Below are positions 40,765-46,065 of a stretch of DNA of 64,000 bases, piece after piece. Under the pieces are notes generated by a model, which worked only from the letters and a program-made list of their open reading frames with translations, was not told the DNA's origin and made no database searches. The translations under genes were made by a program, and so were the position numbers. This DNA comes from Geothrix sp. SG200 (GTDB taxonomy: Bacteria; Acidobacteriota; Holophagae; Holophagales; Holophagaceae), in the NCBI RefSeq assembly GCF_022808935.1, contig NZ_JAKZFR010000002.1, positions 248,001 to 312,000 on the forward strand, read 5' to 3'. Numbering within the stretch: the first letter of the stretch is position 1; each line of letters begins with the position of its first letter.

Positions 40765-42138
40765 TTACGCGTAGGAGGAGGTCTCCCGGACCATCTCGCG
40801 GTACATCGCATACTCGCCCTGGAAGTGCAGCTGGATGATGGCGGTGGGGCCATTGCGGTGCTTGGCCACGATGAGCTCGGCGGAGTTGTCGGGTTCCTCG
40901 TTGGCAGAGGGCATCAGCTTGCGGTGGATGAAGGCCACCATGTCCGCGTCCTGCTCGATGGCACCCGAATCGCGGAGATCGCTGAGCTGGGGCCGGCCGC
41001 CCTGACGGTGCTCCACCTCGCGGTTGAGCTGGGAGAGCACCACCACGGGAATCCCAAAGTCCTTGGCCATGAGCTTGAGGCCGCGGCTGATCTCGCCAAT
41101 GCGGACGGCCTCGTTCTGCTTAGCGCCCCGGCTGTTCTCCGGGCTGCTGAGCAGCTGGAGGTAGTCGATGATGACGAACTCCACCCGCCGGTTGCTCTGG
41201 CTGCCCTGCTTCACGATCATGTTCTGGATCTGGGGGACGGTGATGGAGGCTTGGTCGCAGATGAACAGCGGCATCTGCACCAATTCGTCCCGAGACCGCA
41301 TCACGTGGTCCAGCCGTCCAGTGGCGCGGCCGGACTGGAGGTCCTTCATGTTGGTCTGGCTCTGGGCGGCGAGCAGGCGCAGGAAGACTTCCTCGTGGCT
41401 CATCTCGAGGCTGAAGAAGGCCCCGCATTGGCCTGGACGGCCATCCCGCTCCTGGGCGGCCCGCAGGATCCAGTTGAGAGCCAGGGCTGTCTTGCCGACA
41501 CCGGGACGGGCAGCGAGGACGATGAGGTTGCCGGGCTGGAAACCCTGGGTGAGCTCGTCGAAACGCTGGAAACCGACCCGCACGCCGGGCGACAAACGTC
41601 CCTCCAGGCGATCGTGGAGGCGCTCCATGGCATCGTCCGCCACCGATTGGATGGTGAGCAGACCCTTGGCCTTGGCATCTCCCTGAGCCAGGTGGAAGAG
41701 GCTCTGGGCGGTCTGGTCCACCAGCACTTCCGGGGGTTCGTCTTCTTCCGCGGCCTGGCGCACCAGCTGGGCCCCCAGGTGGACGAGGCGACGCAGCTTG
41801 GCCTTGCGCCGGATGAGGTCCGCCAGCACCTGAGGGCGCTCCACATCCTCACCGGCCAGCAGTTCCACCAGGCCCGGATAGCCGCCCACCTTGTTCAGGC
41901 TGTCGTCCTGGTCCAGGGCATCCTTCAGGGTGAGGGAGTTGACCTCCACCTGGGCTTCGATGAGGGTGCGCAGGGCCCGGAACACAGCCCGGTGGGCCGG
42001 GTGGACGAAGTCCTCCTCGGCCAAGGCGAAGACGGCTTCGCTGGCCACGAACCCCGCGCCCGGGGCGCAGCAGGTGGCCAGGAAGGACCGTTCCGCATCA
42101 ATATCCTCCGGAAGGCGTTCCGGAAGCCAATCCGCCAT
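40765..42138 (-). CDS. dnaB: Replicative DNA helicase DnaB
   Basis: The hexameric replication-fork helicase, 457 residues. The N-terminal DnaB domain starts PEDIDAERSFLATCC (residues about 10-110) and the RecA-like domain has Walker A ARPGVGKTALALN, Walker B VEFVIIDYLQLL, VVLSQLNREVEHR and the arginine-finger region. The ATG at 42138 has AGGGG upstream; a GTG immediately before it is possible. No ribosomal or replication genes are adjacent. Confidence 0.96.
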   Translation of the reverse strand: MADWLPERLPEDIDAERSFLATCCAPGAGFVASEAVFALAEEDFVHPAHRAVFRALRTLIEAQVEVNSLTLKDALDQDDSLNKVGGYPGLVELLAGEDVERPQVLADLIRRKAKLRRLVHLGAQLVRQAAEEDEPPEVLVDQTAQSLFHLAQGDAKAKGLLTIQSVADDAMERLHDRLEGRLSPGVRVGFQRFDELTQGFQPGNLIVLAARPGVGKTALALNWILRAAQERDGRPGQCGAFFSLEMSHEEVFLRLLAAQSQTNMKDLQSGRATGRLDHVMRSRDELVQMPLFICDQASITVPQIQNMIVKQGSQSNRRVEFVIIDYLQLLSSPENSRGAKQNEAVRIGEISRGLKLMAKDFGIPVVVLSQLNREVEHRQGGRPQLSDLRDSGAIEQDADMVAFIHRKLMPSANEEPDNSAELIVAKHRNGPTAIIQLHFQGEYAMYREMVRETSSYA

Positions 42139-42155
42139 CACATCACCCCTGCCGA

Positions 42156-45100
42156 CTAGAGTCCCGGAGGAGTGTACCCCCCGCCGTCCACATCCACAAA
42201 GATCGGGTTGGTGACGGCGATGGGATAGATGCCCTTCATGATCTTGTTCCAGGGTGTTCCGGCCTGATAGGCCCCAGTGGTGGCCAGGGGCACACCCGCT
42301 TCGACCACCACCCAGGCATCCTTGCCCGTGGGCATGACCACGCCATCCAGGGTCGCCGTGCGGAGGCGGAAGTCCGTGGGAGAGGCGGTGAAGCTGCTCA
42401 TGGGCACCACCTGGGCCACCCCGTTCACGACCACGCGCACCTCATCGACCGGCACCCAGTCCGCCGCGTAGAGCGAGATGGTGATGGATACGGTGGGGGC
42501 GGGCCCGGCCACCAGCCCCCCGGAACCCACACCATTGACGGCCACGTCGAGCAAGGGGCCGGTGGAGGCCACGGCTGCGCCGCTGCGAAGGGCGGCCAGC
42601 AGGGGATCAAGGGTGTCCTGGGTCAAGGTTTCGGAACCGAGCTTCAGGTAGGTGCGGGCCAGGCCGACCGGCGTGTCATAGCTGAACTTCGAGGCGGAGA
42701 GCCCCAGCGCCTTGGTGAAGGCCGTCGGGGTCTGCTGGTTGAGCAGGGAGAACCAGTCGCTCCGGACGGCCTTGAACTCGGCGAACCAGGCGGTGGGATC
42801 CGCAGGATCGCACCCTTCGGCCCGGATCAGCTCCAGGGCATCGAAGTCCCCCTGGTGCGCGCCGAGGGACACGGGGCCGGTCTGGGTCCACCAGGCGTTC
42901 GCTCCCGATCCGAGGGGAACGGCGGGGTCGAACCCGCGGACAGTGAACAGGCCTTGCGGCCCCCGGGGCCGGTGGACGATGTTATAGCGCCCCTCCGCCT
43001 GGGTGATGAAGTCCGCCAGGGTCCAGCCCTTGGAGGGCCTGGCTCCGCCGTTGCGATCTCCGTTGGGAGCGGGCGTGAAGAGGGCCGTCACGAATCCGTC
43101 CGCCAGCGTGGAGCTGCGGGCACCGACCACCAGCGGATCGATGCCGATGGGGACGCGCTGGGCATCCGTGACCGCCGCGTTCTCGATCTCCGTCCGGAAC
43201 TCGGTCCTGAGGGCCGTCGGATCCGTCAGGTGATCCTCTTCCGTGCGGGCCACCGCATCCACCCCCTCCGCGAGGGCGGAGCTGAGCATCTCGCCCGGAT
43301 TCAAGCCACCGGTGGTCGCCTGGGTGGGGCTCGGGACATCGAAGGCCTTCCAGCCAATCGGCAGGGTCGGAGGGAGGGTCACGAAGGTATGGCTTAAATC
43401 CGTCTGGCCGTCAAAGGACTTCACGGGCAGCGCTTCCAGGTGGGACAGCGGACCGCGGGTGCCGTAGGCCAGGTAGTCTCCCGGAGGGAGGAAGACCGAA
43501 GTCCCTCCACCGGAATACCGGAAGGAGGTTCCGAAAACCTGATTTCCTGCGGTGTACTGGTAGTCCGCCACGCTCGCGCTTGAGATCACCTTGGCCTTGT
43601 AGACCCGATCGTAATATCCGGCCAGGCGGCGTGAGCGCTTCATGGAGGGATCGGCCGCTCCTCCCTGGCCGGCCAGGGTGATGCGGAGGGGATTCAGGCC
43701 ATCCATCTCCAGGGTTCCGGCCTGCCGGGCCACGAAGGTGTGCCGCTGCTGCTTGCTGCGGACCACGTTTCCTGACGTGTCCGTGACCTCGGCCCGCTCG
43801 GGACTCAGGTTCTCCGCCAACGTCCAGATCTGGCTTTTGGAAGGTGTGATGGGGGTGGGCAGGTAGGGCCGGTCGGCGTTGGATGTATTGGTGCCGAGAT
43901 ACAGCGTGTTGCTCTGGAAAGCGTTTCGCGCGGTCACCCGGTACGGCTGGCTGAGGCCCGTGCCGCTGGCATCCGCGACGGCCGGGAGGAATACGCCGAT
44001 GGGTCCGCTGGAGGAAGGGATGTCGCTGGGCTCGCGCCACTCCACGCGTTCGGTGACCCAATGGGAGGGATCGGCGTCGGTGGAGGGGTCCGCGCTAGAC
44101 CCGGTGTAGCGATCGAACCGGAACTCGGTCTGGAGCGGACCCGTGCGGGCGGCCGTACCGAACGAGTCGAACGTGAGGATGCCGTATTCGCCGCTGTGGA
44201 ACCCCAGCCGGGCCTGGACCATCTCATTGAAGACCGCGGTCGCCTGGGCTGGCTGGGTGCCTGAGATGCTGGCATTCCCGACCTCTCCGCCCAGGACGTA
44301 CAACCGGCGCCGGTAGGTCATGGGTTGTCCTGCCGGCAGGCTGGTCGCAGCGGGGCTCCCCACGACCAGTCGGCCCGGGAAGCGGGGACGGAGCTCGGTG
44401 AGCGCGGGTTGAGGATCCGAGGCCACCAGCACCTGATCCACGTCCAGCGGCAGAATGCCGAGGGTGGAGTGGGCATCCAGCGTGTCTCCGGAGGATTCCG
44501 AGCCCATGAGCGCCACCATGGGCGTCACCACGCTCGTCGTCAGAGGTGCCGTGAAGTCCGATCCCGGAATCTCCACCCCCCAGCTGCTGATCGGGGTTCC
44601 CTCGAAGGTCGTCACGGCGGGGACCACGAACCGGAATCCACCGCCATGCTGCGAAAGGAAATCCCCGAGGTTCCGGATGGGGAGGGCCGACGTTCCATCG
44701 TTGGTGATCGTGGTCTCCAGGGTGAAGTAGGTATTGGCCTTGTTCAGGGTGATCCGGTGGGCGACGCTGACTCCCAGCACCCTCCCCTGGGCATCCGTGG
44801 CCACTCCGAGCTTCCCCTTGGGATCCAGGAGGTAGCCCTGCATGTCCAGGTACACCTCGTTCACACCCGTCCCGGGCGAGTAGCGGTCGAAAACCAGCGG
44901 CAGGTCGGGGTCCTGGTTCACCACGGGACCCAGGCGCTCGACCATGTCTGTGGGCAGGGACACGCGCTTGTAGTTCTGGTCGAGGGCGACGTTGCCCACA
45001 TCGAGGATGGCGCCACCGGAGGGCGCGCCAAACTGGCCTTCCCGGTTCCCGAACGCCGCGCCGTCCACGGCGATCTGGACCGCATCGTTGCCGAGGTAGA

Positions 45101-45314
45101 AGTCTCCGGGCCCCGAGGTCGCCTTCAGGCCGTGCAGGCGATCGCCTCCGGAAGCGGGGATCTCCTCCACCGCCACCGTGGGCCGGCCCACGCCCGTGGC
45201 CCGGAAGCAGCCCGTGACGCCCCCGGCCAGGACCAGGGCCAGCGGGGCCAGGGCCAACGGGAAACGCGGGGACAGACGAGGGGAACGGACTGCGGGATCA
45301 AGGCTCATGTTCAT
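42156..45314 (-). CDS. Giant lipoprotein, degenerate CehA/McbA-like metallohydrolase
   Basis: A 1052-residue lipoprotein; the lipobox is VLAGGVTGC near residue 32. The C-terminal third follows the order of CehA/McbA-type PHP hydrolases: a region like the family's helix PEEMxxxAxxEGxDxxxxTEED, a DWFSLLN segment, then ALRSGAAVASTGPLLDVAVNG and the closing AVTNPIFVDVDGGG. The expected histidine motifs (DLHxH, TDHN and SDSH) are missing in the matching places, so metal catalysis is unlikely. The N-terminal two-thirds are beta-rich and unassigned. The start is uncertain (ATG 45314, 45308 or 45344). Confidence 0.65.
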   Translation of the reverse strand: MNMSLDPAVRSPRLSPRFPLALAPLALVLAGGVTGCFRATGVGRPTVAVEEIPASGGDRLHGLKATSGPGDFYLGNDAVQIAVDGAAFGNREGQFGAPSGGAILDVGNVALDQNYKRVSLPTDMVERLGPVVNQDPDLPLVFDRYSPGTGVNEVYLDMQGYLLDPKGKLGVATDAQGRVLGVSVAHRITLNKANTYFTLETTITNDGTSALPIRNLGDFLSQHGGGFRFVVPAVTTFEGTPISSWGVEIPGSDFTAPLTTSVVTPMVALMGSESSGDTLDAHSTLGILPLDVDQVLVASDPQPALTELRPRFPGRLVVGSPAATSLPAGQPMTYRRRLYVLGGEVGNASISGTQPAQATAVFNEMVQARLGFHSGEYGILTFDSFGTAARTGPLQTEFRFDRYTGSSADPSTDADPSHWVTERVEWREPSDIPSSSGPIGVFLPAVADASGTGLSQPYRVTARNAFQSNTLYLGTNTSNADRPYLPTPITPSKSQIWTLAENLSPERAEVTDTSGNVVRSKQQRHTFVARQAGTLEMDGLNPLRITLAGQGGAADPSMKRSRRLAGYYDRVYKAKVISSASVADYQYTAGNQVFGTSFRYSGGGTSVFLPPGDYLAYGTRGPLSHLEALPVKSFDGQTDLSHTFVTLPPTLPIGWKAFDVPSPTQATTGGLNPGEMLSSALAEGVDAVARTEEDHLTDPTALRTEFRTEIENAAVTDAQRVPIGIDPLVVGARSSTLADGFVTALFTPAPNGDRNGGARPSKGWTLADFITQAEGRYNIVHRPRGPQGLFTVRGFDPAVPLGSGANAWWTQTGPVSLGAHQGDFDALELIRAEGCDPADPTAWFAEFKAVRSDWFSLLNQQTPTAFTKALGLSASKFSYDTPVGLARTYLKLGSETLTQDTLDPLLAALRSGAAVASTGPLLDVAVNGVGSGGLVAGPAPTVSITISLYAADWVPVDEVRVVVNGVAQVVPMSSFTASPTDFRLRTATLDGVVMPTGKDAWVVVEAGVPLATTGAYQAGTPWNKIMKGIYPIAVTNPIFVDVDGGGYTPPGL

Positions 45315-45381: not shown

Positions 45382-46065
45382 ATGCCGATCTCCGCCTTTC
45401 TTCATCGCTTCAGGCCGCACCGGCGGACCCTGCTTCTGGCCCTGGCGCTTCTCCTCCTGGGAGACTTGCTCTGGACCCTGGGAAGGTTCCCGGCCATGCA
45501 CCACCAGCAAATCTACCGGGCTGAGGAGCTTCCGCCGATGGGCGGCCCGGTGCTCGTGCTGGGCGCCGGCGTCTACGGCGATGGCGAGCCGACCGAGCTC
45601 CTCCAGGGCCGCCTCCGCACGGCCCTGAGCCTCTACCAAAGCGGGAAGGTCCGCTGGTTCCTGGTGTCCGGCGACAATCGCCACCCCTCCTACAACGAAC
45701 CCCAGGCCATGCGACGCTGGCTGGTCAAGCAGGGCGTTCCCCCTACCCGCATCATCAGCGACTATGCCGGCTTCCGCACCTGGGACAGCCTCAAGCGCGC
45801 GCAGACCGTCTTCGGCCAGCAGAGGGTGGTCATCGTCACCTCGGACTTCCACCTGCCCCGGGCCCTCTACCTGGCCGATCACCTCGGACTGCAGGCATGG
45901 GGTGTCCCCGCCTCCACCGAGAGCCGCCCACCCGTGAATCGGATCCGCTACTGGGCCCGTGAGTACGTCGCCAGGCACCTGGCCCTCTGGGATGTCTGGT
46001 TTCCGCCGGATGCGCGGCTGGGCCCCCGGGAGCCGACCCCGGATGACTGGGACCCGGCCTCATGA
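45382..46065 (+). CDS. SanA/YdcF-like DUF218 membrane protein
   Basis: A 227-residue protein with one N-terminal membrane helix (about 16-35) and a DUF218 domain: PVLVLGAGVYGDGEPTELLQGRL, KVRWFLVSGDNRHPSYNE, VVIVTSDFHLPRALYLA. SanA and ElyC homologs act in envelope integrity in E. coli; the catalytic activity is not established. Its stop overlaps the thiolase start (ATGA). Confidence 0.85.
   Translation: MPISAFLHRFRPHRRTLLLALALLLLGDLLWTLGRFPAMHHQQIYRAEELPPMGGPVLVLGAGVYGDGEPTELLQGRLRTALSLYQSGKVRWFLVSGDNRHPSYNEPQAMRRWLVKQGVPPTRIISDYAGFRTWDSLKRAQTVFGQQRVVIVTSDFHLPRALYLADHLGLQAWGVPASTESRPPVNRIRYWAREYVARHLALWDVWFPPDARLGPREPTPDDWDPAS

Follow-up and report, generated by a model that had tools for sequence, protein, structure and literature searches.

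A CehA/McbA-type PHP lipoprotein of Geothrix without metal ligands, a probable pseudoenzyme maintained in the class Holophagae

A gene within a 64,000-nucleotide stretch of the genome of Geothrix sp. SG200 (NCBI RefSeq assembly GCF_022808935.1, contig NZ_JAKZFR010000002.1, positions 248,001 to 312,000; referred to here as the window, in whose own numbering all positions are given) encodes a protein of 1052 amino acids that appears to descend from a CehA/McbA-type PHP hydrolase and to have lost the metal ligands of its ancestor. The gene is located on the minus strand, which is the coding strand, and runs from 45314 to 42156. The best overall explanation is that its product is a lipid-anchored pseudoenzyme with a non-catalytic role in the cell envelope, to which a probability of roughly 0.7 is assigned, while the pseudoenzyme part of this explanation can be held with high confidence. 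The protein probably now serves a non-enzymatic purpose in the envelope, fulfilled either by binding or as a scaffold. A search of the open-licence PMC literature found no paper on this protein or on dead forms of CehA, that is, forms in which the metal site is gone.

The relationship with the CehA/McbA family (NCBIfam model NF038032), which includes the carbaryl and carbofuran hydrolases CehA and McbA, lies in a homologous C-terminal half with a PHP barrel. A Pfam search of the Geothrix protein gave no match, and NF038032 matches residues 880-1041 with an E-value of 8.3e-15 and 55 bits, below its curated cut-off of 80. In profile comparisons with hhalign, 15 Holophagaceae rows align with seven CehA-type proteins from other genomes over 367 columns (residues 602-1051; E 1.1e-21), a 12-row profile of two other Holophagae families matches the same proteins at E 2.1e-33, and the two dead-group profiles, one of Holophagaceae and one of the remaining Holophagae, match over nearly their full length (E 1.7e-80). 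Sequence searches of the PDB with the Geothrix protein and with one alignment profile found no matches, and a 64-row alignment (63 of 69 full-length open reading frames of relatives plus the Geothrix protein) gave weak PHP matches only, the best being 9etk (E 0.0063). With a profile of the relatives that keep an intact site, the top PDB match is the collagen-adhesion protein 6fwv over the middle part (E 3.6e-5), ahead of the solved PHP protein 9etk (E 9.4e-5). Because ligands 1-5 are in register in this last match, the columns counted below can be taken as real PHP metal ligands.

The predicted fold points in the same direction. An AlphaFold2 model of the full-length protein, built on the 64-row alignment, reached a mean predicted local distance difference test score (pLDDT) of 89.8 and a predicted template modelling score (pTM) of 0.89, and the fold of the C-terminal part was taken from this full-length model. 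The first-pass annotation had made its idea depend on a PHP-type barrel in the C-terminal third. This test did not refute it: structure comparison (VIA-align) matches residues 540-969 of the model to BVU_3505 (PDB 3e38) with Z 14.8 and a root-mean-square deviation (rmsd) of 3.2 over 222 aligned residues. BVU_3505 is a two-domain PHP-like phosphoesterase that was compared by fold; it shares 17% identity and is 342 residues long, hence without the rest of the Geothrix protein. This match and the hhalign alignment define the ligand-free PHP barrel, residues 653-918 (42561..43358, minus strand, borders approximate). It is followed by a beta-rich C-terminal part, residues 919-1052 (42159..42560, minus strand), delimited from the NF038032 match and the model. 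This part holds AVTNPIFVDVDG, the family-typical end that had been recognised from the letters, and the last residues of the protein are AVTNPIFVDVDGGGYTPPGL. A search of BFVD structures ranked a phage protein named for its PHP-type domain second, the other matches being uninformative.

Central to the pseudoenzyme reading is the state of the metal site. According to PMC3666897, PHP proteins follow a nine-ligand scheme (H,H,D,H,E,H,H,D,H), and 0/9 of these ligands are found in the Geothrix protein. The alignment places P661 (43332..43334, minus strand, as for all nine codons) at ligand 1 (His), P663 (43326..43328) at ligand 2 (His), G669 (43308..43310) at ligand 3 (Asp), E693 (43236..43238) at ligand 4 (His), Q719 (43158..43160; a gap-rich region in which the placement is uncertain) at ligand 5 (Glu), F741 (43092..43094) at ligand 6 (His), R782 (42969..42971) at ligand 7 (His), A874 (42693..42695) at ligand 8 (Asp) and K876 (42687..42689) at ligand 9 (His). 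In eight columns of the 64-row alignment the protein thus reads P,P,E,Q,F,R,A,K, versus H,H,H,E,H,H,D,H in 12/12 intact relatives, so that the claim that every expected His motif is replaced proved correct once the metal-ligand positions were checked; the ninth ligand, an Asp, is Gly. In PMC8292978, H313, H315, H453 and H495 of CehA and H467, H477 and H504 of McbA (each in its own numbering) are reported as important; the ligand His of the family are absent from the Geothrix protein. Since no metal ligands remain, PHP hydrolysis is not expected.

This loss extends over the class. A scan of contigs found 143 relatives, of which the best 80 loci were used. All nine ligands are present in 12/12 relatives that share the architecture and are full-length within the set of named loci; they belong to Myxococcota, Candidatus Binatota, Candidatus Poribacteria and unassigned bacteria. 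Seven further intact-type loci (L140, L141, L142, L145, L146, L148 and L149) read HHHEHHDH, as does L147 where it is uncut. In contrast to these, none of the nine ligands is found in 73 of the 75 Holophagaceae rows and one in the other two, while 16 rows from two other Holophagae families have none (nine rows) or one (seven rows, always the Glu of the gap-rich stretch); these rows include near-duplicates (one genome under two ids, or two start choices) and do not stand for independent genomes. Pro, Pro and Gly occupy ligands 1 to 3 in 75, 74 and 75 of the 75 Holophagaceae rows (44, 43 and 44 of 44 in a separate column-conservation count), and in the 75 rows ligand 7 has become Arg in 62 and ligand 9 Arg or Lys in 60. 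Among 247 sampled genomes of Acidobacteriota, 70 match, 27 of them Holophagae over nearly the whole profile and 43 others in the C-terminal part. Nineteen proteins, mostly the best-scoring ones, were read from these 43 genomes; the eight-column set is complete in 18 and lacks one His in the 19th, a CehA-type protein from another family of the phylum (L182, genome G274; HHHEDHDH). Two of the 19, L192 and L193, align in the N-terminal part too, and therefore the intact-site architecture exists in the same phylum. Among the proteins read, near-complete ligand loss is seen only in Holophagae, as judged from the alignments. In another subfamily of CehA-type proteins two of the eight columns seem altered (L043 and L045, HHEEHHDM; L046, HHDEHHDI; L063, HHTEHHDF), possibly through misalignment; L043 and L045 contain a TolB-like propeller and score 220 and 236 bits despite the altered columns.

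The N-terminus of the protein suggests a link to the membrane. Two start codons are possible, ATG 45344 (1062 amino acids) and ATG 45314 (1052 amino acids), and the latter was adopted because relatives tend to have Met at that position; the coordinates 42156-45314 of the first-pass annotation are correct, and only the minus strand had gone unstated. Residues 1-35 (45210..45314, minus strand) form a putative signal peptide, a hydrophobic run ahead of the lipobox with low pLDDT in the model, and are followed by the lipobox V-T-G-C36 (45207..45218, minus strand) and FRATG. The protein therefore classifies, from its letters, as a lipoprotein with the lipobox that had been proposed for it. The lipobox Cys is found in 88/91 Holophagae rows, the other three being partial rows without N-terminus (88/88 of the rows that reach it). 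The lipobox with its C[FY][RH]xTG pattern is missing from all 12 intact rows; in three of them that column does hold a Cys, though in another context, and the termini of several intact rows read as ordinary AxA-like cleavage sites. The lipobox accompanies the ligand loss in the same lineage. In the sorting of lipoproteins, whether the residue after the Cys is Asp or another one bears on anchoring in the outer membrane. Here it is Phe or Tyr, not Asp, which would place the protein in the outer membrane.

How the site was lost was approached with trees from which the eight ligand columns were deliberately excluded. A full-length tree splits 16 dead from 20 intact proteins by one branch with support 100/99, and a smaller one splits 20 dead from 12 intact proteins with support 98/96. 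Because a single branch divides the full-length dead proteins from the intact ones, one ancient loss of the metal site near the base of the class Holophagae, with vertical descent since, is likely. Profiles, predicted model, ligand columns and trees thus support the view that the protein derives from a CehA/McbA-type PHP hydrolase whose metal ligands were lost, and to this extent the initial picture of a dead CehA/McbA hydrolase turned surface binding protein stands, its binding role and its surface location being more tentative matters. In the large secreted CehA/McbA-type proteins of Myxococcota, Binatota and Poribacteria (e.g., L129, L131 and L124), the N-terminal region, the PHP domain and the C-terminal (T/S)NPIFVD align with the Geothrix protein, and in some the middle part as well, but all nine ligands are kept and no lipobox of the Holophagae kind is present.

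The dead gene has been retained. It is present in 74/76 other Holophagae genomes (46/46 of the genus, 12/14 others of the family and 16/16 others of the class), some of these matches being fragments at contig ends, and elsewhere in the phylum 3/23 genomes match, in the C-terminal part only. The two genomes in which neither the protein nor a profile found a match, G048 and G058 (genus g3, same family), are 89% and 71% complete, so that the missing match need not mean a real loss. The closest named loci among the matches listed are those of Geothrix paludis (96%) and G. terrae (95%), the latter of the phylum Acidobacteriota, class Holophagae. None of the matches in this survey of Holophagae and other genomes of the phylum has an internal stop; one TAA was counted in three matches of the phylum sample and is the end stop in G061 and G067 and the codon just before the start in G063. 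Over six Geothrix pairs, the PHP part shows a nonsynonymous rate (dN) of 0.010-0.130 and a synonymous rate (dS) of 0.201-0.783, a dN/dS of about 0.05 to 0.19. By these sequence measures the gene is under purifying selection, as a maintained pseudoenzyme and not as a decaying gene. That it could be a decaying pseudogene, as the loss of catalytic residues might suggest, or resemble CehA by chance, is next to impossible: open frames and a dN well below dS refute decay, and the profile and fold matches refute a chance likeness.

Upstream of the barrel, the first-pass annotation had seen a beta-rich, unassigned N-terminal part. Beta-rich it is, but residues 42-355 (44250..45191, minus strand) can now be assigned to a galactose-mutarotase-like supersandwich, which in the model matches GalM 4bze with Z 16.5 (VIA-align; 233 aligned, rmsd 3.7) and with a Foldseek E-value of 1.1e-7. 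Identity to GalM in this common fold is only 11%. The predicted model contains both folds, supersandwich and PHP barrel, and Foldseek lists matches of the GalM and 3e38 types together with other supersandwich proteins such as YidC. Between them lies a beta-rich middle part, residues 356-652 (43359..44249, minus strand), recognised by DSSP on the model, with the hhalign alignment to intact CehA starting at residue 602; the relative L034 supports it with a sub-threshold match to Pfam CarboxypepD_reg (21 bits, cut-off 32.3).

A path that would account for these features starts from an ancestral protein that was secreted by means of a cleavable signal and combined a beta domain of the mutarotase type with a still active PHP metallohydrolase domain of the CehA/McbA type. 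The metal site would have been lost, most likely once, near the base of Holophagae, the lipobox would have appeared in the same lineage, and the protein would have been kept since. It may then work without catalysis, by binding a glycan or another anionic ligand of the cell envelope through the supersandwich and a refitted PHP pocket in which Arg or Lys often stands in place of the metal-binding His. Such a binding function, for a glycan or an anionic ligand, is a tentative proposal. More doubtful still is its most specific form, in which a secreted metalloenzyme was turned once, at the base of Holophagae, into a lipid-anchored receptor whose cleft of Pro and Arg/Lys binds an anionic ligand of the envelope or the environment and which constitutes a core, possibly essential, part of the envelope. 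Several observations weigh against the overall reading. The single loss is questioned by a tree of the C-terminal half with distant CehA types (from which L145, L147 and L149 were omitted), which needs two changes, although one clade is not rejected (approximately unbiased test, p-AU 0.293); moreover, the trees are unrooted, so that one split is no proof of one loss. Ligand 5 lies in the gap-rich stretch and is Glu in 7/16 rows outside Holophagaceae, but other residues are read there in another alignment. The mean entropy is 1.18 at the former ligand positions versus 1.02 in the rest of the barrel, so that the former are slightly less conserved; this argues against a new pocket under tight conservation, although P661, P663 and G669 are near-invariant. 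Galactose mutarotase has a catalytic His and Glu. Within residues 44-355, no His or Glu is conserved in at least 80% of the 64 rows (the GalM catalytic positions were not superposed), and because, in addition, the supersandwich fold also occurs in the periplasmic domain of YidC and in parts of glycosidases, sugar binding by this domain is a guess.

An outer-membrane lipoprotein acting by binding is nonetheless favoured, with a purely structural role as its close rival, and both readings are put forward as what the protein would do. In the structural reading, which is possible but on the unlikely side, the ligand-free PHP barrel just holds a long beta-rich envelope protein together. The strong conservation of barrel residues that are not ligands (D659, D694, F824, R851, W854 and R887) fits it, as does the fact that former ligand positions are on average no better kept than the barrel, whereas the invariance or near-invariance of P661, P663 and G669, where the first ligand motif used to be, suggests a specific new constraint. 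A precedent exists: in PMC3666897, the PHP domain of E. coli DNA polymerase III is described as non-catalytic and structurally important, and in those PHP domains of DNA polymerases that bind no metal, Arg is the residue that most often replaces the ligand at six of nine positions. The E. coli domain resembles the Geothrix protein in having lost metal ligands, often to Arg, but it is a domain of a cytoplasmic polymerase with five of nine ligands replaced, whereas all nine are replaced in an exported lipoprotein here (PMC3666897 for the E. coli domain).

Two other possibilities leave an enzyme in the picture. Metal-independent chemistry in the PHP pocket or the N-terminal domain is improbable: several Asp residues (D71, D105, D123, D218, D659, D694 and D825) are conserved in almost every row, but D659, D694 and D825 also occur in 12/12 intact relatives and hence are no mark of a new site, a 21-row alignment of the class has no invariant His and E1005 as its sole invariant Glu, and the residues at old ligand positions vary between families. 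A regulatory role as the partner of an active enzyme acting in trans, such as pseudoenzymes commonly assume, seems unlikely as well, if slightly less so. In its favour, the same-family genome G055 also has a separate CehA-type protein, L045. Against it, the 3.36-Mb host genome contains one copy of the gene, and the search for paralogs with intact His that the first-pass annotation had advised found none of the family there, its only other match to the CehA/McbA model being a PHP protein of the ordinary kind, in which the DLHCHT and LTDHD motifs are intact; nor do eight loci of other Holophagae families show, next to the gene, any of the 12 window genes that were looked for as neighbours. In another genome of the same family (G060, contig C58), L044 is a second match to the Geothrix protein, C-terminal only (E 5.5e-7).

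The neighbourhood of the gene raises one further alternative, a function tied to DNA replication. A dnaB gene (40765..42141, minus strand; Pfam DnaB) begins 14 bases downstream and directly follows the lipoprotein gene in 52/52 Holophagaceae loci, its first aligned residue lying 5-132 nt beyond the last sense codon of that gene. On the other side, a YdcF/DUF218 gene (45382..46065, plus strand; Pfam DUF218) is divergent in 48/52 of these loci, which are all that extend far enough, the other four ending earlier. Neither dnaB nor YdcF was found in the eight loci of other Holophagae families, of which L144 ends 127 nt past the gene, and because of this the dnaB adjacency is regarded as a local gene-order habit of Holophagaceae, a functional link not being thought likely. 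Together with the export signal on the protein, this makes a replication role very improbable, and the DnaB link was rejected. The neighbours in L133, a locus of another Holophagae family, are a PEMT-like protein, a GH57 protein and a nucleotidyl transferase, and in L123, L130 and L139, from a Sulfidibacter-type family, a protein of about 600 amino acids with MutS domain V (MutS_V) is encoded downstream of the gene.

For naming, the consequences are direct. The Geothrix protein should not be called a metallohydrolase, because, despite the predicted PHP fold and the homology, it lacks the metal site that defines the family and stays below the score cut-off of the family model. A dead relative, L035 (1852-4776, genome G063), scores 96.8 bits with NF038032, above the cut-off of 80, though its His ligands are gone, and therefore model-based annotation would name a dead protein a metallohydrolase. 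Family models can thus mislabel such proteins, and one dead member already passes the NCBIfam cut-off. The protein also offers a clean case of the conversion of an enzyme into a non-enzyme, one that can be compared with intact relatives sharing its architecture. It is a candidate core protein of the cell envelope in Geothrix, which is an iron-reducing genus.

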